From Desulfobacteraceae bacterium (GTDB lineage Bacteria; Desulfobacterota; Desulfobacteria; Desulfobacterales; SURF-7): DNA of 64,000 nucleotides. The position numbers and the translations under genes were made by a program. The stretch is taken from the NCBI GenBank assembly GCA_003599865.1, contig QZKS01000074.1, forward strand, positions 1 through 64,000. The letters run 5' to 3'. This document shows, in pieces, positions 32,166 through 48,931 of this stretch. Within the stretch, counting starts at the first letter, position 1, and the number at the start of each line of letters is the position of its first letter. The notes beneath the pieces were generated by a model. That model did no database searches and was not told where the DNA came from. It saw only the letters and a list, made by a program, of their open reading frames with translations.

Positions 32166-32409
32166 GAGTACAGGATCGGAAGTAGTTATATGCTCTCGAC
32201 AATCATCCTAAAGGTTCCAAGTCCGCTTCTCATAACTCCTTCGTGGATAGGGCCTGATTCCGTTGCAGCTGCGATCCGGTCCGGGATGACCGAAATTTGA
32301 TGAGACTTTTTTAGGAGCCCTTGCTATCTGTTCCTTTGTCATGGTAATGATAACCATCATATCAATATCGTTGACGTCACAATAAACCATGGCGGATTGG
32401 GGGCCTCGG

Positions 32410-34008
32410 ATGGTGAACCCCGCGAACTGGAAAATCCTTCTGATTGACGACGAACCGGACATCCGTGATGTCGTGTCCATGGATCTGACGGATGCCGGAT
32501 ATACCGTGCTGACCGCGGCGGACGGTGCGGAAGGGCTTGCGATATGCGATGCAAAGCGGCCTCAGATTGTCATTACCGATATCCGCATGCCGAAAATGGA
32601 CGGGCTTGCCGTCCTGGCAACCATCAAGGAAAAATATCCCGACATTCAGGTGATTGTGGTGACCGCATTCGGGGAGATCGATGTGGCCATTCGCGCCCTT
32701 CAGCTGGACGCATCTGATTTTATTTCCAAACCCATCAGCCCGGATGCCCTTCATGTGGCACTGAAACGCGCCCGGGACCGGTATTCCCAGCTCATCGCCC
32801 TTTCCGATTACACCGCGCTTCTGCAGAATGAAAATGCACGCACCGCAGCAGAATTGTCCCGCAGTATTGCCTTTCAGAAAAATCTGATCCAATGTTCCAT
32901 GGATGGAATCGTGGGATGCGATGAACAGGATACGATCGTCATTTTTAACGACAGCATGCAGAAGATGCTGGGATACCGGAGCGAGGATATCCTTCACAAA
33001 ATGAAACTCGATGCACTGTTTGCCGACGGCATGTATGCACCGTTCCGGGCCGCGCTGGAAGGTGAAAACCGGGGAAGGCCCGGCCGGCTGTTTCTGTTTG
33101 AAACCGCACTGAAAACCGGAAACGGCAGTATCATGCAGGTTGAGGTATCGGCGGTGGTGCTGCCGGAAACATTCGGTTCCCGGGGACTGGTATGTTTTTT
33201 CAGGGATCTCGGGGAGATTCGCAGGCTGGAACAGCAGATGGCGGATCAGGCGCGCGTGCTGCACCAGGACAAGATGATGTCTCTCGGCCGTCTTGCCGCC
33301 AGCGTGGTGCATGAAATCAATAACCCGCTTTCCGGCATCCTCAATTATCTGCGACTGATGATGAAAGTCCTGAATCGCGGGAGTATGGACGGCGAACACC
33401 AGGACAAGTTCCGGCAGTACCTTGACCTGGTGATCACGGAGACGGACCGATGCTCACGCATTGTTTCCGGCCTGCTGCTGTTTTCCCGGAAACAGGAGCC
33501 GCTTTTCGAGCCGGTTGACCTGCTTGCGCTGATCGATCGCTGTGTGATTCTGTGCAGTCATAAACTGGAGCTGAACCGGATTGAATGGAAACTGTCGCTG
33601 CCGGAACGATTGCCCTTGATGACGGCTGACGGAAACCAGCTGCACCAGTGTCTCATCAATCTGATCCTCAATGCAACGGATGCCATGCCCCAGGGCGGGG
33701 AACTTTTTCTGTCGGTTCGCCATGAGACACAGCCGGACTGCATTGTCCTGACAGTGCGCGATACCGGCGTGGGGATACATGCCGAAGACATCCCCCATAT
33801 ATTTGATCCGTTTTTCACCACCAAACAGGCCGGATACGGGGTCGGACTCGGGCTTTCCACGGCTTATGGGATTGTGGAACGGCATAACGGAACCATCACG
33901 GTTGACAGCAAATCCGGCAAGGGAACCACCTTCATGATCCGGCTGCCGGTCAACCAATGCGGGTTGACGGAATCCGGCAAACAGGGAAAAAATGAAAACA
34001 CAGCCTGA
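32410..34008 (+). CDS. Receiver-PAS-histidine kinase (hybrid signalling protein)
   Basis: ~532-aa soluble protein. An N-terminal receiver domain has phospho-acceptor D57 (IVITDIRMPKMDG), then comes a PAS domain (~150-270). The HisKA His is ~301 in SVVHEINNPLSG, and the HATPase has RDTGVGI and GVGLGLSTAYGI boxes. ATG at 32410 follows a GGGGG-type RBS; ATG at 32389 is also in frame. The last 17 bp overlap the sigma-54 activator gene, so kinase and activator are made together and are the likely cognate pair, although the activator lacks a receiver domain. No membrane helix. Confidence 0.86.
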   Translation: MVNPANWKILLIDDEPDIRDVVSMDLTDAGYTVLTAADGAEGLAICDAKRPQIVITDIRMPKMDGLAVLATIKEKYPDIQVIVVTAFGEIDVAIRALQLDASDFISKPISPDALHVALKRARDRYSQLIALSDYTALLQNENARTAAELSRSIAFQKNLIQCSMDGIVGCDEQDTIVIFNDSMQKMLGYRSEDILHKMKLDALFADGMYAPFRAALEGENRGRPGRLFLFETALKTGNGSIMQVEVSAVVLPETFGSRGLVCFFRDLGEIRRLEQQMADQARVLHQDKMMSLGRLAASVVHEINNPLSGILNYLRLMMKVLNRGSMDGEHQDKFRQYLDLVITETDRCSRIVSGLLLFSRKQEPLFEPVDLLALIDRCVILCSHKLELNRIEWKLSLPERLPLMTADGNQLHQCLINLILNATDAMPQGGELFLSVRHETQPDCIVLTVRDTGVGIHAEDIPHIFDPFFTTKQAGYGVGLGLSTAYGIVERHNGTITVDSKSGKGTTFMIRLPVNQCGLTESGKQGKNENTA

Positions 34009-35728
34009 CAATTATCCGTTTTATTTGCACTGCGACGAATGGGTCCGTGTGCTGGACGAAATGAATATCGGTGCGTTTACGATTGACGGACATCGGCGAA
34101 TTACCTGTTTTAACAAAAGTGCCTGCATCCTTCTGGGGCGGCAGGGAAGCGATGTCATCGGAAAGGATTGCCGTGAGGTGTTTCATGACATCCCTTGCTA
34201 CAGTGCATGTCCGTTTCATGAAAAGAGTGAAACCGGCTCCGGCCCGGATGTGGAAATCATTGATCAAGAGGCCGTTCGTCATTGCATCACCCGCTATTCC
34301 ACACCGTTCTACGGCCCCGGAGACCGGATCAGCGGGTGCCTCACGATTCTGCAGGATCATTCACCAATCGTCGAGCTCATCAGCAAGGTGAGCTATGAGG
34401 AACGGAGCATGAAGATGATTCTGGACAGCCTGAACATCGGTATCTGCACGGTCAACCGCGGTGAGAACATCACTTTTTTCAACACTGCCGCCGAAAAGAT
34501 TACCGGGTCCGGCCGGGCGGATGTTCTGGGGAAAAAGTTTTTCAGCATTTTCGGAAAAGACGGACAATGCAACTGGAAACTGCTGAAAAGCTCCATGTCC
34601 GATGGATTTCATCGCAACAGCCAGGAGGGGGAGATTAAAAGCCGGGAAGGGGAAACCGTTCCCATACGGGCGCAATATCTGCCCCTGCAGAACGAACAGG
34701 GGCAGATTGTCGGAGGAATGGTGACCCTGCAGGATCTGACCCTGGCAAAACATCTGGATCAGGTGGTTCAGGGCCGGTCCACTTTTTTTCAGATGATCGG
34801 CAGGGATTCCTCCATGCAGAAAATTTTTGAGATCGCCCGTGTCGTGGCGCCCAGTGATGCGACCGTGCTGATCGAGGGAGTGACCGGAACCGGGAAGGAT
34901 ATGCTGGCCAGGATCATTCATTCCGCAAGCAGACGCTCCGAAATGCCCATGATCAAATTGAACTGCGCGGCCCTGCCGGAAAATCTGCTGGAATCCGAAC
35001 TGTTCGGCTATGTGCGCGGGGCCTTTACCGGCGCGGACCGGGATAAACCCGGACGGTTCCAGGAGGCGGACAAGGGCACGATATTCCTGGACGAGATCGG
35101 CGATCTTCCCCTGTCGCTCCAGGCCAAACTGCTCCGCGTTCTGGAGGAAAAATGTTTTTATCCGCTGGGCTCCCGGCGTGTGGTTACCGTCAATGTCCGC
35201 ATTATTGCGGCCACGAATCGCGGGCTGCTGAATCTGGTTGAGAAAGGGCTTTTCCGGGAAGATCTTTTCTACCGGCTGAACGTGGTGCAGATTGAACTGC
35301 CGGCCCTGAAAAGCCGAAGGTCCGATATCCCCCTCTTGATCCGTCATATTGCCAGAAAGGTCTGCGCCAAGCAGGCCAAACGAATCCCCGAAATCTCCGA
35401 AACCGCCATGGATGTGTTGTTGAATTACGATTACCCCGGCAATATCCGTGAGCTGGAAAACATTCTCGAACATGCGCTGATCGTTTGCCAGGACGCCTCC
35501 ATTGATGAGAGGCATCTGCCGTCCTATCTGAAGCAGCGGATGCATCCGGAAAGAACTTCCAAAAAAAATTTGGAAGCCGGGGCGCCGGATGCAACAGGCC
35601 GGGAACGGGAGGTCATTATCAAGACGTTACAGCAGTTTCAGTGGAACCGGAAGAATGCCGCCCAATCCCTTCGGATGGACCGGACAACCCTCTGGAGAAA
35701 AATGAAACGGTATGGTCTGATTTCCTGA
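33992..35728 (+). CDS. PAS-containing sigma-54-dependent transcriptional activator
   Basis: 578-aa enhancer-binding protein. Two N-terminal PAS-type sensor regions span ~15-125 (with CYSACPF cysteines) and ~135-255. The AAA+ domain follows: Walker A GVTGTGKD ~298-305, GAFTGA loop ~344-349 that contacts sigma-54, and [10 protein letters not shown]. The C-terminal Fis helix-turn-helix ends [19 protein letters not shown]. There is no receiver domain, so control by PAS ligand or redox signal is likely. Its binding sites may be the TTGCA repeats just downstream (35749-35845), next to a sigma-54-type promoter facing the Hdr operon. Confidence 0.9.
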
Positions 35729-35845: not shown

Positions 35846-35920
35846 AAACCGGCATTTCCGGCCCTATCCTTACCCCAATCATCATTCTAACCTGTTATCA
35901 GGAAAGCCTTTTCTTTGTAC

Positions 35921-35977: not shown

Positions 35978-36454
35978 ATGCCGCAACAGGAAAAGAAAAC
36001 TATTCTGATTGTTGATGATGATATCGATATGCAGATCTATCTCTCGACACTGCTTTCGGGAAAAGGATTTACTCCCGTTGTTGCCCGGGATGAAATGGAA
36101 GGGTTGGAAAAGGCGCCGGCATGCCGGCCGGACCTGATCATCATGAGCATGATGATTCAGGGTGAGATGTGCATACGCTTCTATAACCGGTTGCGGGAGC
36201 ACCGGGAGCTTCGGCGGATTCCGGTCATGATGCTTTCCTCCATTCAGAACCGGACGATTTTTCATTATCATCGGAGCCGGCAGTTTTCTTCCGGCCGGCA
36301 TATTCCTCCTCCGGACCTTTTTCTTGCAAGACCGCCGGAGGCAGCGGAACTGGCGGCAGGCCTGGAAAAATTGCTGAATGCCGGCCGGCACAGGAGAAGA
36401 AGGAAAACAGACAGGAGATCGGGAACGGTCGGGCATCCGGTCAAGGGCAACTGA
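35978..36454 (+). CDS. Degenerate (pseudo-)receiver domain protein
   Basis: 158-aa single-domain receiver homologue. The N-terminus keeps the acidic cluster (TILIVDDDIDM), but the phospho-acceptor Asp is replaced by Ser in PDLIIMSMMIQGE and the conserved Lys-Pro is LARPP. Phosphorylation by the standard route is therefore unlikely. The C-terminus is very basic (GRHRRRRKTDRR). ATG at 35978 is chosen because the longer in-frame start at 35915 lies upstream of the candidate sigma-54 promoter core. It is the first gene of the Hdr operon, ending 10 bp before hdrA, and may act as a docking or anti-signalling factor. Confidence 0.75.
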   Translation: MPQQEKKTILIVDDDIDMQIYLSTLLSGKGFTPVVARDEMEGLEKAPACRPDLIIMSMMIQGEMCIRFYNRLREHRELRRIPVMMLSSIQNRTIFHYHRSRQFSSGRHIPPPDLFLARPPEAAELAAGLEKLLNAGRHRRRRKTDRRSGTVGHPVKGN

Positions 36455-36464
36455 AGGAACAGTC

Positions 36465-39400
36465 ATGGATCTGAGGATTGGCGTCTACATTTGTCATTGC
36501 GGGATCAATATCGCGGGCAAGGTCCGGGTGGAAGAAGTGGCTGCCTATGCTTCGACGCTGAACGATGTTGTCGTTGCAAGGGATTATAAATTCATGTGTT
36601 CCGATCCGGGACAGGACATGATCGAGAAGGACATTCATGAATTCAATCTGAACCGTGTCGTTGTTGCTTCCTGTTCTCCGAGGCTTCATGAAAAAACATT
36701 CCGGGATGTTTGCCGGCGGTCCGGCCTGAATCCTTATCTGTTTCAGATGGCAAGCCTGCGGGAGCAGGTATCCTGGGTGACGGTTGATAAAGATGCTGCC
36801 ACGCATAAGGGAAAGATCCTGGTGGGGGCGGCTGTAAACCGGGTGTCATATCATGAGCGTCTGGAAACCCGGGAAGTAAAGGTACATCCCGATGTGATGG
36901 TGATCGGCGGCGGCATTGCCGGGATGCAGGCCTCTCTTGACATCGCGGATTCCGGGCTTCATGTATACCTGGTGGAAAAGCAGCCGACCATCGGCGGTCA
37001 CATGCTTCAGTTTGACAAGACATTTCCGACACTCGACTGTGCCGCCTGCATTGGGACGCCCAAAATGGTCAGCGTGGGACAGCACCCCCATATTTCCCTT
37101 CTCAGCTATTCGGAAGTGGTTAAGCTGGAAGGATTTATCGGCAATTATACGGTGACGGTGAAACGCAGGCCGCGGTATATCATGGAAAAAAAATGCACCG
37201 GCTGCGGAACATGCACGGATGTGTGTCCGGTGACCCGCAGAAGTGAATGGGATGAAGGACTGGGCCTTCGGAAGGCTATTTACCGGCAGTTCCCCCAGGC
37301 CGTACCCATCACGTTTTTGATTGACAAGCAGAAACGGCCGCCGTGCAACACCGCCTGTCCGGCGGGTGTCAATGTGCAGGGTTATATCCAGCTGATCAAG
37401 GCCGGCAAATATGAAGAAGCTGTCCGGCTGATCATGGAACGGATACCGCTTCCCGGAGTACTCGGCAGGGTCTGCCCGCATCCCTGCGAGGCGGAATGCC
37501 GCCGCCGGGAAGTGGACGCGCCCATTGCGATCCGGGACCTGAAACGGTTTGCAGCCGATCAGGTTGACTGGGAGCGGTTTCCGTTGCCGGTGATTCAAGA
37601 CAGGGAAGAAAAAGTCGCGGTGATCGGTTCCGGTCCTGCCGGCCTGACCGTTGCCTGGAACCTGAGACGGCTGGGGTATCCGGTATGCATTTTTGAACAA
37701 CTGCCGGTTCTGGGCGGCATGCTGCGTGTGGGTATTCCGGACTACCGGCTTCCCCCGGACGTCCTGGATCGAGAGATCCGTTATCTTCTCCGGACCGGGA
37801 TAGAGGTGCAGACCCGAAAAACCTTTGGCCGGGATTTCACCCTGAAAAGTTTGTCCGAAGATGGTTTCAAGGCGGTATTTCTCGGGTTCGGCGCACATGA
37901 GGGCCTCAAACTGCGGATTCCCGGTGAGGATGCTCCGGAAGGAGTCATGGATGCGATTGAGCTGCTGAGAGACGTGAATCTGGGGGTGAAGAAATCATTC
38001 GGAAGCAAGGTGATCGTCATCGGCGGCGGGAACGTGGCCATTGATGCGGCAAGGGTCCTCAAACGTTCGGGTGCAAAGCAGGTCCGGCTGGTTTATCGAA
38101 GGTCGCGCGTGGAAATGCCGGCTTATGAGGATGAGGTCCGGGAGGCGGAAGAAGAAGGCGTTCAGTTGATGTTTCAAATCATGCCGGTCCTTATTCTGGT
38201 CCAGGAAAACCGGGTCGTCGGTCTGGAATGCCTGAAAACCGAGATGGTTGCGACAGGCGACAGCGGCCGTCCGCGCCCAAGACCCATAGCCGGATCGGAA
38301 TTCATTCTTCCCTGTGACGCCGTTGTTCCGGCCATCGGTCAGAATACGGCGGCACCGTGGGCGGATACGGTTCCCGGCTTGCAGTGGACAACACGGCAGA
38401 CCATTGTCGTGGAAAAGGAAACACAGCAGACAGCCATCCCGCATGTATTTTCCGGGGGAGATGCGGTTTCCGGTCCATCCACGGTCGTGGAAGCCATTGC
38501 ATCCGGTCACCGTGCCGCAGCGGCCATGCATCGATTTCTGCGAGGGAAAGCAGCAGACGATAAAGCGGAAACTTCCTTCCCTGATCCGGCAGGCTGCGAA
38601 GACTGGAGGCCGGTTCCTTCCGATCTGGAAAAAGAAGAACGGGCGGTCCCTGTTTTTTCAGACCCCCATATCCGTTCCCTGACATTTGATGAAATTGATC
38701 CGGGGTTCAGCACGGAAGATGCCGTCCGGGAGGCCGGACGATGCCTGAATTGCGGCGGTTGCTGTGAATGCATGGAATGTGTCCGTGTCTGTGAAACCGG
38801 CGCCATCGATCACCGGATGCCTGAGGAATTTTTATCCATTCCGGTGGGAAGCATCATCACCGCGACCGGATTTGATCTGTTTGACAGCCGTCCGATCACC
38901 CAATATGGATTCGGAAGATATCCCAATGTATTCAGCAGCCTGGAATTTGAACGACTCAACAATGCCACCGGGCCGACCGGGGGCCTGATCCGGATGCGGG
39001 ATGATCACGGGAATTTTACCGATCCGCCGCAGAGTGTCGCCATTGTGCACTGCGTGGGAAGCCGGGACGATCATTATCATGAATACTGCTCACGGGTATG
39101 CTGCATGGCAGCCCTGAAATACGGACATCTGATCCATGACCGGCTGGGCCATCAGGTGCGGGTGTATGATTTTTATATCGACATGCGGTGTTTTGGAAAA
39201 AATTATGAGTCTTTTTTCCGGCGCTGCCAGGAAGAGGGGATCTGTTTTACACGGGGAAAACCCGCTGAGATTCAATACCAGAACGGCGGGTCGGATTCCG
39301 GGAAGTTGATGGTGATCGGCGAAGATACCCTGCTCGGCATGCCGTATCGTATTCCTGTGGACATGGTTGTTTTATGCGCCGCCATGGAAGCCCGGAAGGA

Positions 39401-39881
39401 TGCCGGTGATGTGGCCCGGATACTGGGCATCAGCCAGGGACGCGACGGCTTTTTCCTGGAAGAGCATCCCAAGCTGGGGCCTTTGAGTACCTCCACGGAC
39501 GGAATCTTCCTGGCCGGTGCCTGCCAGTCTCCCAAGGATATCCCTGATACCGTGGCCCAGGCGTCCGGGGCTGCCGCCAAGTCATTGTCCCTGGCAACGC
39601 GGGGAAAGGTTGAAATCCCGTCCACCATTTCCCGGATCGATCCGGAACTCTGCGCCGGATGCCGGACATGCATCGGCCTGTGTCCATATACGGCGATTGA
39701 TTTTGATGAGCGGCGGGGGGTTTCGGTGGTCAATGCCGCATTGTGCAAGGGCTGCGGCTCCTGTGCAGCCGGGTGTCCCAGCGGTGCGGCACAGGTACGG
39801 CATTTCCGGAAGCGTCAGATTTTTGCGGAATGTCATGGAATACTGGACGGATTGAAAGGAGAAGCCTATGGATGCGTTTGA
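36465..39881 (+). CDS. hdrA: HdrA with inserted NfnB/GltD-like NAD(P)H oxidoreductase module
   Basis: 1138-aa flavin/iron-sulfur protein. The N-terminal HdrA domain is followed by the FAD motif GGGIAGMQASLDIA (148-) and a [4Fe-4S] set C244/247/250/254. A ~480-residue GltD/NfnB-like module is then inserted: C294/C298 and C337/C341/C345 for Fe-S, GSGPAG (388-393) for FAD and GGGNVAID (520-527) for NAD(P)H. The HdrA sequence resumes with CxxC-rich CLNCGGCCECMECVRVC (~760-776), the CVGSRD/CSRVCCM region and a C-terminal two-cluster ferredoxin. HdrA is the electron-bifurcating flavin centre; the insert suggests NAD(P)H as donor or acceptor. ATG at 36465 is preferred over 36378. Overlaps mvhD by 14 bp. 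Confidence 0.9.
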   Translation: MDLRIGVYICHCGINIAGKVRVEEVAAYASTLNDVVVARDYKFMCSDPGQDMIEKDIHEFNLNRVVVASCSPRLHEKTFRDVCRRSGLNPYLFQMASLREQVSWVTVDKDAATHKGKILVGAAVNRVSYHERLETREVKVHPDVMVIGGGIAGMQASLDIADSGLHVYLVEKQPTIGGHMLQFDKTFPTLDCAACIGTPKMVSVGQHPHISLLSYSEVVKLEGFIGNYTVTVKRRPRYIMEKKCTGCGTCTDVCPVTRRSEWDEGLGLRKAIYRQFPQAVPITFLIDKQKRPPCNTACPAGVNVQGYIQLIKAGKYEEAVRLIMERIPLPGVLGRVCPHPCEAECRRREVDAPIAIRDLKRFAADQVDWERFPLPVIQDREEKVAVIGSGPAGLTVAWNLRRLGYPVCIFEQLPVLGGMLRVGIPDYRLPPDVLDREIRYLLRTGIEVQTRKTFGRDFTLKSLSEDGFKAVFLGFGAHEGLKLRIPGEDAPEGVMDAIELLRDVNLGVKKSFGSKVIVIGGGNVAIDAARVLKRSGAKQVRLVYRRSRVEMPAYEDEVREAEEEGVQLMFQIMPVLILVQENRVVGLECLKTEMVATGDSGRPRPRPIAGSEFILPCDAVVPAIGQNTAAPWADTVPGLQWTTRQTIVVEKETQQTAIPHVFSGGDAVSGPSTVVEAIASGHRAAAAMHRFLRGKAADDKAETSFPDPAGCEDWRPVPSDLEKEERAVPVFSDPHIRSLTFDEIDPGFSTEDAVREAGRCLNCGGCCECMECVRVCETGAIDHRMPEEFLSIPVGSIITATGFDLFDSRPITQYGFGRYPNVFSSLEFERLNNATGPTGGLIRMRDDHGNFTDPPQSVAIVHCVGSRDDHYHEYCSRVCCMAALKYGHLIHDRLGHQVRVYDFYIDMRCFGKNYESFFRRCQEEGICFTRGKPAEIQYQNGGSDSGKLMVIGEDTLLGMPYRIPVDMVVLCAAMEARKDAGDVARILGISQGRDGFFLEEHPKLGPLSTSTDGIFLAGACQSPKDIPDTVAQASGAAAKSLSLATRGKVEIPSTISRIDPELCAGCRTCIGLCPYTAIDFDERRGVSVVNAALCKGCGSCAAGCPSGAAQVRHFRKRQIFAECHGILDGLKGEAYGCV

Positions 39882-40290
39882 ACCGTCTCTGATCGCGTTT
39901 GTATGCAACTGGTGCACTTACACGGCTGCCGATCTGGCCGGGACTTCAAGGCTTTACTATCCTCCGAATGTCCGGCTGATCCGGGTGATGTGTACCGGCA
40001 TGGTGGACCCCCAGTATGTCATCAAGGCATTCCTCGAAGGCGCGGATGGGGTTCTGGTCAGCGGTTGTCATCCCGGGGACTGCCATTATATCAACGGCAA
40101 TTATAAGGCCCGGCGGCGCATCCGGCTTTTGAAAGAAATTCTGCCCCGGTTCGGTTTTGACGAAAGAAGGCTTCGTCTGACCTGGATCGGTGCCAGTGAC
40201 GGGATAGAGTTTTCCCATATCATCACCGAACTGGTGGAAGAACTCAAAGGGCTGGGGCCGGTCCAGACGCAGAACAGTATGGTCATTTAA
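39868..40290 (+). CDS. mvhD: MvhD-like [2Fe-2S] subunit of heterodisulfide reductase complexes
   Basis: 140-aa hydrogenase iron-sulfur subunit family protein. The conserved Cys residues are in FVCNWCTYTAADLAG, VMCTGMVD and SGCHPGDCHY and should hold a [2Fe-2S] cluster. In methanogens MvhD carries electrons from the hydrogenase to HdrA. Here no hydrogenase is present, so it probably links HdrA to the adjacent FrhB/FdhB-like subunit or to the NAD(P)H module. It starts inside the end of hdrA, so translation is coupled. Confidence 0.9.
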   Translation: MDAFEPSLIAFVCNWCTYTAADLAGTSRLYYPPNVRLIRVMCTGMVDPQYVIKAFLEGADGVLVSGCHPGDCHYINGNYKARRRIRLLKEILPRFGFDERRLRLTWIGASDGIEFSHIITELVEELKGLGPVQTQNSMVI

Positions 40291-40306
40291 CATAGGCGGT
40301 GAAGGA

Positions 40307-41443
40307 ATGGCTGGATATTTCAAGGCGGACCTGGTGGAAAACAGCCTGCTGAAAACCCTGCGGGCGTTCCTGAAAACAATGCTGGATATGGATGACATTC
40401 GGTCGATCCTGGTTCCCTGCCGTTTGCCGATGAAACCGCGCATCATGCCCATGCTGGTTTCGGATGCATCATATCTGGCGAATGCCGACCCGATCGCCCC
40501 CTCGTTTCCGCTGAATTCTGCCCGGATCGTTTCCCGGCTCACCCGGAAAACAGCCGGCGGTGTTCTTGCCGTTGTCCTGAGACCCTGCGAGATGCGGGCG
40601 TTTGTCGAACTGGTCAAGCTGAACCAGGGCCATCCGGATGACCTGATTCTGGTGGGACTGGACTGCATCGGCGCCTTCAGCAACCGGGATTATGCCGGGA
40701 TTGCCGATCGTCATGACAGTGATTTCAGCGAGAACTACTGTTGGAATGTTCTTTCCGGAAAAGACACGAAAACGGACGGGACGGACCAGACCCCGGCCTG
40801 CCGGACCTGCATGCAGCCGGTCCCGGATCAGGCGGATATCCGGATTCAGCTGTTTGGTTCCCGTCTTGAAGACGGCCTTTGCATCCAGGCCGGATCGGAA
40901 AAAGGGGAGCAGCGGTTATCCCGGATGCAGTTGAAATCTTCGGAAAGATCCCTGCAGCGGGATTCGGCAGTGGAACAGGTGATCCGGGTCCGGCAAAGCA
41001 ATTGCGAAAATATGATTGCGGAAGTGGAACAGAAGACGGATTCCATGGAAAAGCTGAACCGGTATCTGGCGGATTGCGTCAACTGCTATAACTGCCGGGT
41101 GGCCTGTCCGGTATGCTATTGCAAGGAATGCGTGTTCGCAACCGATGTCTTTTGTCACGAGCCATACCAATATCTTCGGTGGGCGGATCGGAAAGGGGCG
41201 ATCAAGATGCCGACCGACACGGTCTTTTATCATCTGACACGCCTGGCCCATATGAGTACGGCCTGTGTCGGATGCGGTCAGTGCAGCAACGCATGCCCCA
41301 ACGATATTCCGGTGATGGAGCTGTTCAAGAGCGTTTCGCTTCGCACGCAGAAGATTTTTGACTATCAGGCCGGCAGGGATGTTCAGGAAAAGCCGCCGCT
41401 GACATCATTCCGGGAGAATGAATATGAGGACATTGTCGGATAA
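40307..41443 (+). CDS. FrhB/FdhB-like iron-sulfur subunit with two C-terminal ferredoxin motifs
   Basis: 378-aa protein resembling the beta subunits of F420-type hydrogenases and formate dehydrogenases. The N-terminal ~190 residues hold VLRPCEMRAFVEL and VGLDCIGAF, shared by that family. The C-terminus has the cysteine clusters CVNCYNCRVACPVCYCKEC and CVGCGQCSNACP, fit for two [4Fe-4S] clusters. In Hdr loci of sulfate reducers such proteins replace the hydrogenase subunit and feed electrons to MvhD/HdrA. The redox partner (formate, F420-like cofactor, ferredoxin) cannot be fixed from sequence; no catalytic formate dehydrogenase subunit is nearby. Confidence 0.78.
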   Translation: MAGYFKADLVENSLLKTLRAFLKTMLDMDDIRSILVPCRLPMKPRIMPMLVSDASYLANADPIAPSFPLNSARIVSRLTRKTAGGVLAVVLRPCEMRAFVELVKLNQGHPDDLILVGLDCIGAFSNRDYAGIADRHDSDFSENYCWNVLSGKDTKTDGTDQTPACRTCMQPVPDQADIRIQLFGSRLEDGLCIQAGSEKGEQRLSRMQLKSSERSLQRDSAVEQVIRVRQSNCENMIAEVEQKTDSMEKLNRYLADCVNCYNCRVACPVCYCKECVFATDVFCHEPYQYLRWADRKGAIKMPTDTVFYHLTRLAHMSTACVGCGQCSNACPNDIPVMELFKSVSLRTQKIFDYQAGRDVQEKPPLTSFRENEYEDIVG

Positions 41444-41455
41444 AAGAGGCAGCAT

Positions 41456-44400
41456 ATGAAACGGCAGCGGAAAAACGGCAGCGTGCTGGTAATCGGTGCC
41501 GGTATCAGCGGCATCCGGGCTTCCCTGGACTTGGCGGAATTCGGATACCATGTCACCCTGATGGACAGGGCAGCCTATCCGGGAGGCGTACTGATGCAGC
41601 TGGATCACCAGTTCCCCACGAATCATTGCGGGATTTGCCGGCTTCTTCCCAGGGTGAATCAGGCCGGCATTTTCATGTCCTGTGTCCGGAGGGGATTGTT
41701 TCATGAAAACATTACCCTGCGGATGAATACGACCCTGTCTCATATCCGCGGCGAGGCGGGCAATTTTCAGTTCAAACTCCTGGAGCACTCTCCACGGGTC
41801 GATCCGGGAAAATGCCACGGGTGCGGCTTGTGTGAAAATGTCTGTCCAATCGATGTCCCGGATACCTTCAATGCCGGACGGGGTGTATGCAAGGCTGTCC
41901 ATCGTGCAACGCCTTATCTGGATCCCCCCACCTTTGTCATTGAGACGGAATACTGTACCCGCTGCGGCGTCTGTGCAAAGGCCTGCCCTGCCGGGGCCAT
42001 CCATCTGACACCTCCGGAACGAAAAACCTTTCATATATTGGTTGTGGACGATGAACTGGTGATCCGGGATTCCCTGAGGGAATGGCTGCTGGATGAAGGC
42101 TTTTCAGCGGATATGGCCGCATCCGGTCCGGAAGCCCTGGAAAAGATCGCGCAGCATTCCTATCAATTGATGCTGCTCGACATCAAGATGCCGGGCATGG
42201 ATGGGGTGACGGTACTCACAAAGGCAAGAGAAGCGGCTCCCGGTATTGCGGTAGTGATGATGACCGCCTATGCCACGGTGGATACAGCGGTTTCGGCCAT
42301 GAAAACCGGTGCCATGGACTACCTGCTGAAACCGTTTGAACCCGAAGTGCTGATCCCGAAAGTGATCGAACTGTATGAAACATTTAAACCGCAGGACGAA
42401 AATTCTCTGACCGCGCAGGCCGTAATCCTGGCCGGAGGCGTCGACTACTACCGGCCTGAAGCCGGCGAAAACACATTCGGCTTTGGGACGTATCCGGATG
42501 TCATGACCCATCCGGCCTTTGAGCGGCTGTTGAGCCACACCGGCCCGACCGGCGGCCGTCTGGTGCGCCCTTCGGACGGAAAGCCGGTGGAAAGAATTTC
42601 CTGGATTCAATGTGTGGGGTCCCGGGATCTTCAGCACCATGCCGATTTCTGTTCCGGCATCTGCTGCATGACCGCCGTTAAGGAAGCCATGCTGGCCAAG
42701 GCGGCATCCGCCGGTCCTCTGGAAACATCCATCTTTTATATGGACATGCGGACATTTGGGAAATCCTTTCAGCGGTATCGGGATCATGCTGAAGGGGAAG
42801 CGGGAATCCGGTTGGTACGGGCCCGGGTGCATTCGGTGGTGGAAGATCCTGCCGGCAATGGTCTGCAGCTTCGGTACGTGGATCTGTCCGGAAACAGCCA
42901 TCTGGAAACTTCCGACCTGGTCGTGCTTTCCGTTGGTCAGCGTCCGTCTTCCGCATGCCGCAGCCTGTCCGAGATGCTTGGTTTTTCCCTGGACAGCACC
43001 GGTTTTCCGGCGGCCCGGCCATTTCTGAAAAGCACAACGGATCAGGAGGGGATTTTTATTGCAGGGTCTTTCGGCGGTTTGCAGGATATCAGTGAATCCG
43101 TGATTCAGGCCGGTGCGGCAGCCCTGTCCGCCTCCCGCTTATTGCACAAATCCGGCAGGGGATTGCGTGCGGAAACCGCAGAATCAGGGGAAATCCGGAA
43201 TGTGGACCTGGAAGTGCCAAGGATTATGGCCGTTATCGAAGCCTGTCCCGGAATCCGACAGAGCAGGGAACGGCAGGATGAGCTGATCATGCATCTCAAA
43301 CAGAACCCCCTGGTGCAGACGGTCCTGTTTTCCGATCCGATGGATTCCATAGACCATCTGATCCGGTTTCTGAAGGAAAAGATGACCTCTCAGGTCAATC
43401 GTCTTCTGATCAGCGCAGGTTCCATAATTTTATCGGAAAACCACTTGCAGGATATCGGTGCGGCTGTTCATCTTTCCCGGCAGTATATTCATGCTGTCCG
43501 GCCTGTGCCGTTTTTTCCGAAATCCTCCTCTAACCAGGAGGAAGCGGCAGAGGGGGGAAGGTATGCAGAGGCTGTCAGGATGCTGCAAACCGGGATTGCC
43601 GTCCTCAAGCATGCCGGTCCCCGTGAAGAGACGAAGCTCATGATTTATCAGCGGGCCCTGGTGATCGGCGGAGGGATTGCCGGTCTGACCGCGGGGCTGG
43701 GTATTGCGGATCATGGATTTGATGTGGATGTGGTGGAGAAGACGGAACAGTTCGGCGGCAACCTGGGATGGATCGAACAGACACTGACCGGTGATTCTTC
43801 CCGTGCCTTTTTCGAAGAGATCCTGGCAAGAGCGGAAAAGCATCCGCATATCCGTCTGCATTCCAATATGCTGGTGAAAAAGCTGTCCGGAAAGTTCGGC
43901 TGTTTTTCCGCAACACTGTCTTCCCGGGATGCGGAGGAGGAAAAGGTTCAATACGGTGCGGTCGTCCTGGCGAGCGGCGGAACCGAATGCCCGACAACAT
44001 CCTATCATTTCGGACACCATCCTTCCATCGTCACCCAGAAGTCTTTTTCACAGGAACTGCAGCAGGGAAAACCGGCCTTGTCGACAGTCGTGATGATTCA
44101 GTGCGTGGATTCCCGCGAGGAACCGCGAAACGTTTGCAGCCGGGTCTGCTGTCAAACCAGTCTGCGCCTGGCATTGCAGTTGAAAAACAGCCATCCGGAT
44201 ATCTGCATTTACATTCTGTACCGGGATATGATGAGTTATGGGGCTTCCGAGTCTTATTATACCGAAGCGCGCAGCCGGGGCGTCCTTTTTATCCAGTATA
44301 CGGTTGGCCGGAAGCCGGAAGTCATTCTGCCGGAATCTCCGGAAGGAGCCTTGCGGATCAGAACCTTTGAGCCGATTATCGGGCGGGAAATTGAAATCGA

Positions 44401-44941
44401 GACTGACCGGATTGTGCTGGCAACCGGCGTGACACCGTCCTTTCCGGGCGGCATGACGGATCATCTTTCGGCTGCCAGGGATGGGGACGGTTTTTTTCAG
44501 GAAGCGGAAAGTAAATGGCGTCCTTTGGAGTCCATGACAGCCGGGTTGTTCGGGTGCGGACTGGTCCGGGCCCCCTGTACCATCACCGAAGCGGTTGTAT
44601 CGGCCGAAGCTGCTGCAATGGGCGCGGTTCAGGTTCTGGACAAGCATCGCCTGACATTTTCCCCCAAAATCGCAAGGGTGCGGGTCAGCCTGTGCGCCTT
44701 ATGCGGACGGTGCATCGATGCCTGCCCCTTTGAAGCCAGAACCCTGAACAGCGAGCTGGAGCAGGTTGAGGTGAATCCTGCCTTGTGTCAGGGCTGCGGG
44801 ACGTGTGCGGCAGTTTGTCCCAATGATGCATCCGTGCTGGATGGGTACGCTCCGGAACAGATGTTTGAGATGATTGATATTGCGCTGGAAACAGCAGAGA
44901 ACCGGAAAACCGGGCGGGAAACATTGTCGCAGGAGCAATAA
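41456..44941 (+). CDS. Double HdrA protein with an embedded response-regulator receiver domain
   Basis: 1161-aa fusion. HdrA unit 1: FAD motif GAGISG (14-19), [4Fe-4S] sets C120/123/126/130 and C167/170/173/177. Directly after the second set, residues ~192-312 are a complete receiver domain: D198/D199, phospho-acceptor D242 (LMLLDIKMPGMDG), T270 and K292. HdrA unit 1 then resumes (CVGSRD ~386, CSGICC ~399-404). A second FAD unit begins GGGIAGLTAGLGIA (738-), has CVDSRE and CSRVCC (~883-899), and ends in a two-cluster ferredoxin (C1080/1083/1086/1090; C1111/1114/1117/1121). A phosphorylatable switch inside a bifurcating flavoprotein implies post-translational control of electron flow; this is inference. 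Continuous reading frame. Confidence 0.92.
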   Translation: MKRQRKNGSVLVIGAGISGIRASLDLAEFGYHVTLMDRAAYPGGVLMQLDHQFPTNHCGICRLLPRVNQAGIFMSCVRRGLFHENITLRMNTTLSHIRGEAGNFQFKLLEHSPRVDPGKCHGCGLCENVCPIDVPDTFNAGRGVCKAVHRATPYLDPPTFVIETEYCTRCGVCAKACPAGAIHLTPPERKTFHILVVDDELVIRDSLREWLLDEGFSADMAASGPEALEKIAQHSYQLMLLDIKMPGMDGVTVLTKAREAAPGIAVVMMTAYATVDTAVSAMKTGAMDYLLKPFEPEVLIPKVIELYETFKPQDENSLTAQAVILAGGVDYYRPEAGENTFGFGTYPDVMTHPAFERLLSHTGPTGGRLVRPSDGKPVERISWIQCVGSRDLQHHADFCSGICCMTAVKEAMLAKAASAGPLETSIFYMDMRTFGKSFQRYRDHAEGEAGIRLVRARVHSVVEDPAGNGLQLRYVDLSGNSHLETSDLVVLSVGQRPSSACRSLSEMLGFSLDSTGFPAARPFLKSTTDQEGIFIAGSFGGLQDISESVIQAGAAALSASRLLHKSGRGLRAETAESGEIRNVDLEVPRIMAVIEACPGIRQSRERQDELIMHLKQNPLVQTVLFSDPMDSIDHLIRFLKEKMTSQVNRLLISAGSIILSENHLQDIGAAVHLSRQYIHAVRPVPFFPKSSSNQEEAAEGGRYAEAVRMLQTGIAVLKHAGPREETKLMIYQRALVIGGGIAGLTAGLGIADHGFDVDVVEKTEQFGGNLGWIEQTLTGDSSRAFFEEILARAEKHPHIRLHSNMLVKKLSGKFGCFSATLSSRDAEEEKVQYGAVVLASGGTECPTTSYHFGHHPSIVTQKSFSQELQQGKPALSTVVMIQCVDSREEPRNVCSRVCCQTSLRLALQLKNSHPDICIYILYRDMMSYGASESYYTEARSRGVLFIQYTVGRKPEVILPESPEGALRIRTFEPIIGREIEIETDRIVLATGVTPSFPGGMTDHLSAARDGDGFFQEAESKWRPLESMTAGLFGCGLVRAPCTITEAVVSAEAAAMGAVQVLDKHRLTFSPKIARVRVSLCALCGRCIDACPFEARTLNSELEQVEVNPALCQGCGTCAAVCPNDASVLDGYAPEQMFEMIDIALETAENRKTGRETLSQEQ

Positions 44942-44956
44942 GGAAGGAGACAGGGC

Positions 44957-45529
44957 ATGAAGCAGTCTTTGTTCAGCAAGGAAGGACAGACGGAATCGGG
45001 GCCTGCCGGTCTGCTGCAGGATCTTTCCCGTGAACTGCGGGCATGCATTCAGTGCGGCACCTGTACCGGATCATGCCCCAATGCCGCGGCCATGGATATG
45101 ACGCCGCGCCAGTTGTGGCGATGCGTGCTGACCAACCGGATCGAAGCTGTTTTTTTCAGCCGGACCTTCTCTCTCTGTTCATCCTGTTATTGCTGTACCC
45201 TGCGGTGTCCGAGGGAACTTCCGCTCACGGAAATCATGGCGAGGCTGAAACAGATCTCCCTCTTTTATGGATTGCACAAGGAAAAGAGGAGTGACCTGTT
45301 TTATCACTGCTTCCTGGACAGCGTGCGTCGTCACGGCCGCATCCGGGAGTCCGAGTTCATGATGATATTTTTTTGGCAGATGAAAAATCCATGGCTTCCG
45401 GTTCAGTATTCCTCGCTGGGATGGCAGTTGATGAAACGGGGCAAGATTCATCTCACCCTGCCGGTCAGGGGGGAGCGTATTCTGGAACCCCTGTTTCAGG
45501 CGGTTGAAAGGATAGAGGGCGGCAAATGA
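44957..45529 (+). CDS. hdrC: Heterodisulfide reductase subunit C
   Basis: 190-aa protein with two [4Fe-4S] motifs, CIQCGTCTGSCPNA (~32-45) and CSSCYCCTLRCPRE (~74-87), as in soluble HdrC. It relays electrons from HdrA clusters to HdrB. No membrane helix, so it belongs to the cytoplasmic HdrABC type and not the HdrDE/DsrMK membrane type. RBS GGAAGGAGA precedes ATG. The last four bases overlap hdrB (ATGA). Confidence 0.9.
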   Translation: MKQSLFSKEGQTESGPAGLLQDLSRELRACIQCGTCTGSCPNAAAMDMTPRQLWRCVLTNRIEAVFFSRTFSLCSSCYCCTLRCPRELPLTEIMARLKQISLFYGLHKEKRSDLFYHCFLDSVRRHGRIRESEFMMIFFWQMKNPWLPVQYSSLGWQLMKRGKIHLTLPVRGERILEPLFQAVERIEGGK

Positions 45530-46455
45530 ACTATTTTTACTACCCGGGATGTTCTCTGGAAGGAACCGCACAGGAGTATGACGCTTCCACGCGGGCCCTA
45601 TTTGCCGCGCTGGGTGCGGATCTCACGGAAGTCGAAGGCTGGACATGCTGCGGTGCCGGAGCAGCGGAATCCGTGAGCCGTTTGCTTGCCCTGGCCTTGC
45701 CGGCGCGCAATCTGGCGTTGATTGAAAAAACCGGTTCGGACGCGGATCTCCTGGTTCCATGCAGTGCCTGCTACCTGAATCTGAAAAAAGCTGCTGAAAC
45801 CGTCAGGAGCGGGTCCGATACGGCCCGAAAAATCAATGAAGCCCTTTCCGTCGAAAACCTGTCCGTTTCCGGGAAAACCAGGGTCCGTCATCTTCTGGAT
45901 GTTCTGATTCGCGACATCGGACCGGAGGTCATTCATGGGCATACCGTATACCCTCTTTCCCGTCTTCGTGTCGCTCCTTATTACGGATGCCAGTGTCTCC
46001 GGCCCTATGCGGCTTTTGATGATCCGGAACGGCCCTGTTCCATGTCAGTCCTTCTTACCGCTGCCGGCGCAAGGATACTGGACTGGCGCATGGGCGGAAT
46101 CTGCTGCGGCGCATCGCAGACGCAGACAAAGCCGGAAAATGGGATACGGCTCACGGCAGCCATTCTGCGGGAGGCCCGGGAAGCGGATGCCATCGTGACC
46201 GTTTGCCCCATGTGCCAGATGAATCTTGCGGCCTTTCAGGCAGCGGCATCCCGCATGGACCCTCTGGTCAGGCCCGTTCCCGTTCTGTTTTTGCCCCAGG
46301 TTCTGGGGATTGCAATGGGCATTGATGCTTCCTTGCTGCGGCTCAACGCCAATCTTTCGGTTACCAGGGAATTTACGGAAAAGCTCATGGCAGACCGCGT
46401 TCCTGTTGCATATTCCCCCTTGAGAGTGGGAGTAAACAAATCATTCCCCCCTTGA
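45526..46455 (+). CDS. hdrB: Heterodisulfide reductase subunit B
   Basis: 309-aa catalytic subunit with two CCG domains. Motif 1 is TCCGAGAAESVS with SACYLNLKKA; motif 2 is ICCGASQTQTK with CPMCQMNL. In methanogens HdrB holds two noncubane [4Fe-4S] clusters that reduce CoM-S-S-CoB; sulfate reducers have no CoM/CoB, so a disulfide such as that of DsrC or another thiol carrier is the likely substrate. The final ~16 residues (from about SPLRVGVNKSFPP) are encoded by dispersed repeat DNA and the stop codon lies inside a repeat unit, so the native C-terminus has been replaced or extended. Confidence 0.88.
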   Translation: MNYFYYPGCSLEGTAQEYDASTRALFAALGADLTEVEGWTCCGAGAAESVSRLLALALPARNLALIEKTGSDADLLVPCSACYLNLKKAAETVRSGSDTARKINEALSVENLSVSGKTRVRHLLDVLIRDIGPEVIHGHTVYPLSRLRVAPYYGCQCLRPYAAFDDPERPCSMSVLLTAAGARILDWRMGGICCGASQTQTKPENGIRLTAAILREAREADAIVTVCPMCQMNLAAFQAAASRMDPLVRPVPVLFLPQVLGIAMGIDASLLRLNANLSVTREFTEKLMADRVPVAYSPLRVGVNKSFPP

Positions 46456-46559
46456 GGGGGAGTAAATAAAACATTCCCCCCTTGAGGGGGGCCTGGGGGG
46501 TGTTTCGTTTTTTCGATGCAAATATTACACCCCCCTTAATCCCCCCTCAAGGGGGGAAT
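46412..46559. repeat. G/C-run repeat cluster with long hairpin
   Basis: Three same-orientation copies of an ATTCCCCCCTTGAGGGGG-type unit start near 46412 (degenerate), 46443 and 46473, and an inverted copy spans 46527-46559. The copies at 46473-46503 and 46527-46559 are imperfect reverse complements over ~31 bp and would fold into a large hairpin with a T-rich loop. It may act as terminator or mRNA stabiliser between hdrB and the kinase gene. Related units probably recur elsewhere in the genome. Confidence 0.7.
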
Positions 46560-46621
46560 GCCATATGGCACAAATATAGGGGGGAATACCTATGGGGGGG
46601 TAACCCTTTGCAGGGGGAGAC

Positions 46622-48928
46622 ATGACCGGGAAAGAAAAACTGAAAAATATCTACCATCGCCTTCACCATAGCCTTGCGTCCAAGCTGATCGTGACCGTCG
46701 GTCTCACGTTGCTGCTGTCCATCTGTACCTGGGCCTATTTCAGTATTCAGTACCAGAAAGAGAAAATGATGAATGAGATTATTGCAGGCGGTGCAAGGCT
46801 TACCGATACGATAAAGCTGGGAACCCACTATGCCATGATGCTGAATTCCCGTGACGATATCAATCAGATTATCAAGAATATCGCCAAGCAGAAGGAGATT
46901 GAAAGCATCCGTATTTACAACAAGGAAGGACAGATCAAGTTTTCCAATACCGCTTCGGAAGTGGATCAGGTCACCAATATCAAAAATGAGGCATGCTATG
47001 TGTGCCATCGGACAGATCCGGCCCTGACAACCCTTGATCTCCATGAGCGGACCCGGATCATTGAATCCTCAGCCGGATACCGCCGTCTGGGGATTATCAG
47101 CCCGATCTGCAATGAACCCGGCTGCACCACCAGCGACTGCCATGTGCATCCGGAAGGGAAAAAGATCCTGGGCGCCCTGGATGTGGTCGTCTCCCTGGCG
47201 GAAACCGATCGGGAAATTCTGTTTTTTGAAAAAGGGATTATCGGTCTGGGGATTTTTGTGTTTGTATTGACGGCGCTTATTATCTCCGTTTTTGTTGTCC
47301 GGTTTATTGCCCGGCCGGTCCGCCTGCTGATTGACGGAACCCGTAAAATCGCGGCAGGCGATTATGTCAGCACCGTGAATCTGGATCAGAAGGATGAAAT
47401 GGGAGTGCTGGCATCGTCCGTAAACCGCATGGGCCGGAGCATTCATGAAAAGCAGTCTGCATTGAACCGGCAACGCTATGAATATCAGAATTTTTTTGAA
47501 CAGGTTCCCTGCATCATCACGGTTCAGGATCATGATTTCAAGATTCTGCGATACAACCGGGAGTTTGCCGAAAGATTCAATCCCCGAACCGATGAATACT
47601 GCTATGCCGCATACAAGGGCCGTTCCGAAAAATGTCCGGACTGCCCTGTGGAAAAAACATTTCAGGACGGGCAATCCCATGTGGGTGAGCAGACCGGTTT
47701 GAACCGGGATGGAACCATGACCTACTGGCTGGTCCGGACATCTCCGATCCGGGATGAGGAAGGCCGCATCATTGCGGCCATGGAAATGAGCCTGGATATC
47801 ACCAAGCACCGGCAGCTCGAAGAAAAACTGGCCGCTTCGGAAAAAAAGTACTATGCCATTTTCAACAACATTCCGAATCCGGTATTTGTATTGAACCGGG
47901 ACAGCCTGGAGATCCTGGACTGCAACGAAAGCGTCAGGACCGTATACGGCTATGACAAGGCGGATATCATCGATACCTCGTTTCTGCGGCTTTTCCAGAA
48001 TGGTGACCCGGTAGCTTATGAACAGGAGATCCGGGAAAAATCCGTGATGAACAAGCTCAAGCATATCACCAAGGACGGAAAAACCATTTATGTAAATATC
48101 CGGATTTCCCCGTCGGAATATGACGGCCAGAAGGTGTTTCTGGTGACCTCCAGCGATATCACCAAGAGGCTGGAAACCGAGCAGCAGTTGATGCATGCCG
48201 GCAAGATCGCCACCCTGGGCGAGATGGCGACCGGCGTGGCCCACGAGCTGAACCAGCCCCTTTCGGTCATCAAGACCGCCAGTTGTTTCTTCATGAAAAA
48301 AATCGAACGGAAGGAACATTTTGAAGAAGACGTCCTTCATACCATGCTGGAAAAGATCGACCGCAATGTGGACCGGGCCACCCGGATCATCAACCACATG
48401 CGGCAGTTCGCCAGGAAAACCGAACAGGATTTGAAAAAGGTGGATATCAACCGGGTAATGGAAAGCGCGTTTGACATCTTCAGCCAGCAGCTGAAAATCA
48501 GGGGGGTGGAAACCGTGTGGGAGATCGACGAACACCTCCCGATGATCATCGGCGATGCCGGGCGTCTGGAACAGGTGTTGATCAACCTGCTGCTGAACGC
48601 AAGAGACGCCATTGAGGAAAAGGAGAAGCGGATCGATCCGGATGACCTGACTTCCGAAGCCTGGGAAAAGAAAATATATCTGCGATCCCGGTTGGAAGAT
48701 CAAAAAGTCATTGTGGAAGTGGAGGACACCGGCCAGGGCATACCGCCGGATATCCAGGACAAGATTTTTGAACCGTTTTTTACGACCAAGGAAGTCGGCA
48801 AGGGAACCGGACTCGGGCTTTCCATCGGGTATGGCATTGTCAAGGATTGCGGAGGGGATATCCTTGTAAAGTCAACACCTGGAAGCGGCGCCTGCTTTAC
48901 GCTTCTTTTTCCGGCAGTGGAAAGATGA
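46622..48928 (+). CDS. Histidine kinase with c-type heme motifs in its extracytoplasmic sensor domain
   Basis: 768-aa membrane sensor. Helices ~22-40 and ~205-227 enclose a ~165-residue extracytoplasmic domain holding CYVCH (125-129) and C168-x4-C173-H174 (CTTSDCH), both able to bind c-type heme. HAMP (~228-280), two PAS domains (~285-400, the first with CPDCP cysteines; ~410-525), HisKA with GVAHELNQPLSV and a HATPase (EDTGQGIP, GTGLGLSIGYGI) follow. It should sense periplasmic redox state. It is downstream of hdrB and just before a receiver-kinase gene. Candidate phosphodonor for the receiver inside the HdrA fusion, unproven. Confidence 0.86.
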   Translation: MTGKEKLKNIYHRLHHSLASKLIVTVGLTLLLSICTWAYFSIQYQKEKMMNEIIAGGARLTDTIKLGTHYAMMLNSRDDINQIIKNIAKQKEIESIRIYNKEGQIKFSNTASEVDQVTNIKNEACYVCHRTDPALTTLDLHERTRIIESSAGYRRLGIISPICNEPGCTTSDCHVHPEGKKILGALDVVVSLAETDREILFFEKGIIGLGIFVFVLTALIISVFVVRFIARPVRLLIDGTRKIAAGDYVSTVNLDQKDEMGVLASSVNRMGRSIHEKQSALNRQRYEYQNFFEQVPCIITVQDHDFKILRYNREFAERFNPRTDEYCYAAYKGRSEKCPDCPVEKTFQDGQSHVGEQTGLNRDGTMTYWLVRTSPIRDEEGRIIAAMEMSLDITKHRQLEEKLAASEKKYYAIFNNIPNPVFVLNRDSLEILDCNESVRTVYGYDKADIIDTSFLRLFQNGDPVAYEQEIREKSVMNKLKHITKDGKTIYVNIRISPSEYDGQKVFLVTSSDITKRLETEQQLMHAGKIATLGEMATGVAHELNQPLSVIKTASCFFMKKIERKEHFEEDVLHTMLEKIDRNVDRATRIINHMRQFARKTEQDLKKVDINRVMESAFDIFSQQLKIRGVETVWEIDEHLPMIIGDAGRLEQVLINLLLNARDAIEEKEKRIDPDDLTSEAWEKKIYLRSRLEDQKVIVEVEDTGQGIPPDIQDKIFEPFFTTKEVGKGTGLGLSIGYGIVKDCGGDILVKSTPGSGACFTLLFPAVER

Positions 48929-48931
48929 AAT

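Follow-up and report, generated by a model that had tools for sequence, protein, structure and literature searches.

A response-regulator receiver within a fused double HdrA of a Desulfobacteraceae bacterium, a candidate for direct phospho-control of an Hdr complex

One gene in the first 64,000 nucleotides of contig QZKS01000074.1 of a Desulfobacteraceae bacterium (GCA_003599865.1; this stretch is referred to as the window) encodes a fused double HdrA with a response-regulator receiver inside its first unit. This protein, here called HdrA-REC, is real, widespread and under selection, and joins two known kinds of protein, HdrA and the receiver. Direct phospho-control of an Hdr complex through the receiver is suggested by the sequence comparisons, and we regard the case for it as evenly poised.

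The single uninterrupted frame of HdrA-REC (Table 1) contains the thioredoxin-reductase-like flavin adenine dinucleotide (FAD) domain of the HdrA fold, while the ferredoxin insert with two four-cysteine sets (positions 120, 123, 126, 130 and 167, 170, 173, 177) is found in unit 1 only. In the order of the Pfam matches, Fer4 motifs are followed by the receiver and then by FAD/Pyr_redox and Fer4 domains, and Response_reg is matched at residues 194-302 (E 1.3e-29, 103 bits, gathering cut-off 30.2). The best NCBIfam family is HdrA2, with 577 bits in four stretches; as this is under the model cut-off of 1100, the protein is of the HdrA type but outside that equivalog. Residues 10-184 align with residues 146-310 of the solved HdrA 5odc_A and residues 322-511 with 323-511, the receiver occupying the site of about 12 HdrA residues that link the inserted ferredoxin domain to the next strand of the FAD domain, immediately past the second iron-sulfur set of unit 1. 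An earlier reading of the letters alone (the original prediction) had placed two HdrA units and an intact receiver, at residues ~192-312 after that set, in one frame of 1161 amino acids, and Pfam and the 5odc_A alignment confirm it. Receiver-free double HdrAs of the same genome span the insertion site continuously, missing exactly the receiver stretch; in one paralogue of 1013 amino acids the profile runs over positions 2-185 and then 311-1135 on the adjoining residues 179 and 180. The classical layout of a response regulator, with the receiver at a chain end and a separate output domain, is not present, the receiver being inside an enzyme. The start of unit 2 aligns with the HdrA N-terminal domain, whose four cysteines correspond to positions 595, 597, 630 and 655.

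An AlphaFold2 model was built from 46 orthologues (mean predicted local distance difference test, pLDDT, 83.9; predicted template modelling score, pTM, 0.83). Its unit 1 superposes on 8rvy_A with a root-mean-square deviation (rmsd) of 2.0 over 415 residues and its receiver on 3crn_B with Z 22.6 and rmsd 1.5 over 124 residues, so that the insertion disturbs neither fold. Receiver helix 296-310 leads within three residues into HdrA strand 314-320 of the model. In receivers the chain ends stand opposite the phosphorylation site, and D242 would thus be expected to stay open to a kinase.

The distribution of the HdrA/receiver junction was determined with a query of 280 amino acids spanning the join. 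Out of 389 genomes of the window's class, 160 matched at E<=1e-40 and 145 at E<=1e-60, the window's own genome included; the best E is weaker than 1e-60 in 15 of the 160, which have fragments or receiver-only matches. Open frames of the matching genomes are mostly 1100-1200 amino acids long, and the named orthologues are mostly from Desulfobacterales, Desulfobacteraceae and related uncultured genomes. Of 395 genomes sampled across the phylum, 15 reached E<=1e-60; seven of these belong to the same order as the window and eight do not. No match was found in the 11 other genomes of the family in the class sample, three congeneric and eight from elsewhere in the family. The GC content of the operon stretch (35990-50071) is 0.548, compared to 0.505 in the rest of the window and 0.469-0.491 in six other HdrA regions of the genome; the operon may have been acquired by transfer.

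The chemistry of the receiver is conserved throughout the clade to which the window belongs (the main clade), represented by 59 aligned rows of which 58 are distinct, L047 and L215 being one record. D198 and D199 are kept in 58/58 rows, one further row being truncated there, and D242, T270 and K292 in 59/59, so that the landmarks listed in the original prediction are intact in every row with sequence at these places. A score above the gathering cut-off, the receiver fold, the acidic pair, the phospho-Asp, the Thr/Ser and the Lys that characterise the family (PF00072) are all found. Compared to the HdrA core, the receiver is also the slower to change (the median distance ratio is 0.67, from 1710 non-independent pairs), and to judge from the alignment its chemistry is held by purifying selection. 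The stand-alone receiver-like protein encoded upstream of hdrL in the same operon lacks the Asp in 8 of 17 loci, that of the window among them; the count is of copies adjoining hdrL and uses the Asp column, the Lys column being aligned in none. Receivers do therefore decay in this operon, yet not inside HdrA.

In a tree of receivers, those of HdrA form a single clade (support 96) with NtrC-type receivers nearest; as this tree is built on few columns and is weakly resolved (56 of its 110 inner branches are open, and long branches come together), it is used only for the HdrA clade and its NtrC surroundings. Within the HdrA clade fall also the receivers of three proteins (L144:13507-14820, L045:14689-16008 and L055:2843-4033) of 437-439 amino acids, one cut by a contig end, in which the receiver stands between two halves that we take from their motifs to be universal-stress-protein-like. 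Two of these genes adjoin hdrA-REC operons, and the receiver seems, by its place in the tree, to have moved between HdrA and such proteins.

A sister family outside the class carries the same HdrA of about 1150 amino acids with the same insertion, in 18 of 59 sampled genomes and in one more genome of the phylum sample. Its receivers are decayed (Table 1): the Thr is lost in 19/19, while the phospho-Asp is kept in 14/18 rows and the Lys in 10/18, which makes the decay partial, and the 14 rows with Asp have lost both the Thr and the second acidic residue. The sister-family receiver outpaces the HdrA core (distance ratio 1.89; 153 pairs, 18 rows), and the receiver fold is still detected by Pfam in the three members scanned (L199, L204, L213). 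Homologues lacking the acidic, Asp and Lys residues, which according to the original prediction would make the receiver a structural relic, thus exist in the sister family (19/19, no member having the full set) but not in the window's clade. As the receiver is kept and slow in one group and degraded and fast in the other, the phospho-chemistry is selected in the first and has decayed in the second.

A tree was also made of the HdrA parts alone, with 30 of the 59 rows of the main clade, 18 of the 19 sister-family rows and 7 of 8 paralogues, one being dropped by the program. It places all receiver-bearing proteins in one clade (support 100), split into intact (96) and decayed (99) receivers, with the receiver-free paralogues outside; as these paralogues are all from the window's own genome, related HdrAs without receiver from other genomes might yet be placed inside the receiver clade. 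The simplest history suggested by these sequences is a single insertion followed by loss of the chemistry in one lineage, the intact receiver probably being the ancestral state. Aspartate-less receivers have been described (PMC4395418; here and below, papers cited by such numbers are considered in the parts of their text available), and the sister-family receivers are like them in missing residues of the phospho-chemistry, except that the Asp is still present in the 14 rows mentioned.

The gene neighbourhood of hdrA-REC was surveyed for the window and L118-L157, 41 regions of at most 20 kb each. On the same strand it is accompanied by hdrL in 38, by mvhD in 34, by an fdhB-like gene in 38, by hdrC in 31 and by hdrB in 32 regions, numbers which are lowered somewhat by score thresholds and short contigs. 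A histidine kinase is present within 8 kb of hdrA-REC in 38/41 loci, and on the same strand in 35/41. For comparison, 13 control windows were drawn, each 18-20 kb long, seven from arbitrary places and the other six from the surroundings of double HdrAs without receiver in the same genome as the window; a kinase domain of any sort occurs in 4 of them. Within the run of genes from hdrL to hdrB in the window, neighbours either overlap or stand at most 16 bases apart, and the first kinase gene starts 166 bases past hdrB.

This first kinase (46622) has the H-box HELNQ and carries two cysteine motifs in the loop between its transmembrane segments, which were located by a simple hydropathy scan. Among 39 PAS kinases adjacent to hdrA-REC, a set including two pairs of duplicate records, CxxCH is present in 38, an additional C(x3-4)CH in 37 and the HELNQ H-box in 39; in an alignment of 25 members C125, C128, H129, C168, C173 and H174 are invariant. 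At the level of the motif, 38 of the 39 are thus candidate c-type haem sensor kinases, with CxxCH between two transmembrane segments. The Mcp40H-20 sensor profile PF21563 (cut-off 27 bits) gives weak matches, with 25.8 bits in the window, 26.1 in L118 and 28.2 in L132, and the match to the c-haem chemoreceptor structure 3b42 is weak as well (E 0.031). Foldseek places WalK sensor domains first and 3b42 at rank 6; given these folds and the weak profile matches, the haem reading is drawn mainly from the motifs. The haem Cache domain (DUF3365/Tll0287) is absent among the Pfam matches to E 1 of the three kinase sensors scanned. Kinase 46622 would, on this reading, bind haem.

A profile of the kinase sensor, built from 25 kinases, matches in 32/41 main-clade regions (21 of these 32 loci being among the 25), in 0/19 sister-family regions, two of which are only 10-11 kb long, and in 0/13 control windows. 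By profile and residue, the haem-sensor kinase and the receiver chemistry are jointly absent in the sister lineage. The original prediction had named the kinases 46622 and 48932 as possible partners without noticing the c-haem sensor; of the two, 46622 is the better candidate. The CxxCH in an extracytoplasmic sensor is shared with the chemoreceptor sensors of GSU0935 and GSU0582 (3b42, 3b47), which we take to bind haem. It is shared also with haem Cache domains (PMC12889525). Kinase 46622 differs from these c-haem sensors in that its sensor is joined to a kinase, has a second C(x3-4)CH and is closest in fold to haem-free WalK domains.

Table 1. Location of HdrA-REC, its domains, the neighbouring genes of the window and the related sister-family proteins
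Feature	Position	Strand	Evidence or remark
HdrA-REC, fused double HdrA with internal receiver, 1161 amino acids	41456..44941	+	Open reading frame (ORF), Pfam, NCBIfam, 5odc_A alignment
Unit 1, first part of FAD domain, residues 8-110	41477..41785	+	Structure-guided comparison
Inserted ferredoxin domain of unit 1, two four-cysteine sets, residues 113-186	41792..42013	+	
Receiver domain, residues 192-312	42029..42391	+	D242 codon 42179-42181
Unit 1, rest of FAD domain, residues 313-566, with C386, C399, C403, C404	42392..43153	+	
Unit 2, HdrA N-terminal-like domain, residues 586-720, 1/4 cysteines kept	43211..43615	+	
Unit 2 FAD domain without ferredoxin insert, residues 731-1065	43646..44650	+	
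C-terminal ferredoxin domain, two four-cysteine sets, residues 1073-1125	44672..44830	+	
HAMP-PAS-PAS histidine kinase, 768 amino acids; transmembrane segments 22-40 and 206-224; loop with CYVCH and CTTSDCH	46622..48928	+	
Receiver and HATPase histidine kinase, 379 amino acids	48932..50071	+	Pfam
hdrL, HdrA with NfnB/GltD-like insertion (residues ~319-794) in inserted ferredoxin domain	36378..39881	+	Pfam, NCBIfam
MvhD/FlpD	39868..40290	+	Pfam
FrhB/FdhB-like iron-sulfur protein	40307..41443	+	Pfam
HdrC	44957..45529	+	Pfam, NCBIfam
HdrB, two CCG domains	45526..46455	+	Pfam, NCBIfam
Stand-alone receiver-like protein just upstream of hdrL, phospho-Asp replaced	35978..36454	+	
PAS-PAS sigma-54 activator without receiver	33992..35728	+	Adjoins receiver-PAS-kinase
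Receiver-PAS-histidine kinase	32389..34008	+	
Sister-family HdrAs with decayed receivers at the same site	L165-L167, L199-L214		0/19 keep all five landmarks

The NfnB/GltD-like module of hdrL sits between the two iron-sulfur sets of its inserted ferredoxin domain. Both HdrAs of the operon are therefore interrupted in or at the end of the ferredoxin insert, hdrL by an NAD(P)H-type module and HdrA-REC by a receiver. The complementarity of Cys197 proposed for tandem HdrAs (PMC9012536) finds no support here, hdrL and unit 1 each keeping both motif cysteines. The ORF of the stand-alone receiver opens at 35915, and 35978 was chosen as its start. Scanning the region for sigma-54 promoter patterns gave no site attributable to hdrL, the nearest (35921) being inside the upstream ORF. 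The 166-base gap between hdrB and the kinase gene (46456-46621) has many C and G runs and CCCCCCTTGAGGGGGG-like inverted repeats. Several of the paralogous HdrA frames of G000 (C29, C12, C51) carry one in-frame TGA, possibly coding for selenocysteine.

We propose that HdrA-REC is an electron-bifurcating or confurcating HdrA with a working phospho-receiver in its core. The membrane kinase whose gene closely follows hdrCB, and whose extracytoplasmic part has the c-haem motifs, would bind haem, read the periplasmic redox state or a haem ligand, and phosphorylate D242. The receiver would act at a hinge in unit 1, with the bifurcating FAD domain on one side and, on the other, the inserted ferredoxin domain, which in HdrA structures is the low-potential exit; standing at the root of this exit it is well placed to act on that branch. 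Phosphorylation may alter, in one direction or the other, the coupling to the flavin of the exit or of a partner docked there, so that the division of electrons by a presumed complex of HdrL, MvhD, FdhB, HdrA-REC and HdrCB would be set without a transcription step. As the short form described below keeps the receiver without the ferredoxin insert, control of unit 1 or of its partners is favoured, either of them being compatible with the proposal. Conformational gating of electron transfer has been described for Hdr complexes (PMC12350162). Control of electron flow by the receiver is strongly suggested by the comparisons above; the fullest version, in which a c-haem kinase reads the periplasmic redox state, phosphorylates the HdrA receiver and sets how electrons are shared out between ferredoxin and the second branch, the system having arisen a single time and disappeared from one lineage, is put forward tentatively, as rather less than probable.

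A number of observations weigh against this proposal, which is built from sequence comparison and models. The decay in the sister family is one evolutionary event only, and kinases of another kind (HK-REC with NtrC) are found near the sister-family loci. In the main clade, 3/41 loci have no kinase within 8 kb despite an intact receiver, and the haem-sensor kinase is missing from 9/41 of the 20-kb regions; other intact receivers of the window, those in 48932 and 32389, are possible alternative targets of the kinase. The window HdrA-REC is on a long branch of the HdrA tree, and by alignment three of the four cysteines of its unit-2 N-terminal domain are lost, all four being kept in 53/61 aligned rows. 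Nine matching genomes belong to one genus in which six have, by length, a shorter protein with the match starting at the receiver. One such short form (L157:8544-11354, G193; 936 amino acids) has lost the inserted ferredoxin domain and has an intact receiver in its place, so that the receiver cannot act only through that domain.

The survival of an intact receiver in this short form also suits a docking role, in which phosphorylation would decide between pairing of HdrA-REC with HdrL/HdrCB and its docking at the membrane kinase, and would not act on the internal electron path. NtrC-type receivers, the nearest ones by tree, commonly act by dimerising via the alpha4-beta5-alpha5 face. We think such a switch of assembly or location unlikely, the receiver being tightly held on both sides (helix 296-310 and the strand from 314) in the core of the enzyme and not in a tail. 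Improbable, in our view, is signalling in the reverse direction, by which the redox state of HdrA would alter the receiver and drain phosphate from the kinases or feed back on them, HdrA-REC being a redox sensor for a two-component network. Receivers can serve as phosphate sinks, and several kinases and a receiver-less sigma-54 activator are encoded in the cluster; however, none of the Pfam-annotated genes of the window's cluster is a DNA-binding regulator with a receiver on which to feed back. That the receiver is a mere spacer or packing element may be accepted for the sister family, in which the fold outlasts the full set of residues, but is very improbable for the main clade, where the five landmarks are kept wherever present and the receiver is slower than the core, and it is rejected there. 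An assembly artefact joining two genes, which the original prediction had named as its possible undoing, or a fusion confined to this contig, is refuted, with a negligible probability left, by the recurrence of the junction in frames mostly of full length across the class, the absence of matches in the rest of the family notwithstanding.

In direct phospho-control of HdrA-REC, the known and the new are to be distinguished. The HdrAs of HdrABC-MvhAGD, Fdh-Hdr and Elp-Hdr (5odc, 7bkb, 8rvu, 8rvy) have in common with it the FAD domain, the inserted and C-terminal ferredoxin domains and the C-x(n)-CCM motif, whereas HdrA-REC has two units per chain and a receiver replacing about 12 residues. NtrC-family regulators have the nearest receivers, but act through a sigma-54 ATPase and DNA binding, compared to a redox enzyme here. 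Fused double HdrAs, with two HdrA units per chain as in HdrA-REC, are known from anaerobic methanotrophic (ANME) archaea and from the Moorella MetFV-HdrABC-MvhD (PMC9012536); a receiver is not reported for them, the term "response regulator" being absent from the available text. In some ANME-1 HdrAs an NfnB-like domain interrupts the inserted ferredoxin domain, which resembles hdrL here (PMC9012536). Locus VIII of Desulfobacterium autotrophicum HRM2 comprises hdrL/hdrA4, hdrBC and fdhB (PMC2702500), and is like the window operon in its tandem hdrL/hdrA with fdhB, hdrB and hdrC. A figure legend common to nine HRM2 loci names a histidine kinase, a response regulator and a CheY-like regulator, and the word "receiver" is absent from the available text; compared by description, this locus and the window operon may be one and the same. 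The two-component system of DVU2394, which is tied to heterodisulfide reductase genes (PMC3333781), acts on transcription, while here the receiver belongs to the enzyme. Double HdrAs, NfnB insertions, kinase-bearing Hdr clusters and transcriptional hdr control are thus already in print (PMC9012536, PMC2702500, PMC3333781). No description of a receiver inside HdrA was found in searches of the open-licence literature of PubMed Central, a scope beyond which most subscription papers lie. The statement of the original prediction that no such system is described stands, within that literature, for the receiver in HdrA and falls for the double HdrA, which is already published (PMC9012536).

The decayed sister family, the receiver-free paralogues of the same genome and the short form without ferredoxin insert are built-in controls, which make the regulation of bifurcating enzymes directly testable. 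For many anaerobes it is electron bifurcation that sets the energy yield, and the controls described for it in the literature considered here are structural gating within the complex or gene transcription (PMC12350162, PMC3333781). If direct phospho-control of HdrA-REC holds true, a two-component system would here have the site of electron bifurcation as its output. Periplasmic redox conditions would then adjust the partition of electrons at once, via the haem-motif kinase and the HdrA receiver, and signalling would steer the energy metabolism of anaerobes related to sulfate reducers directly rather than by gene expression.

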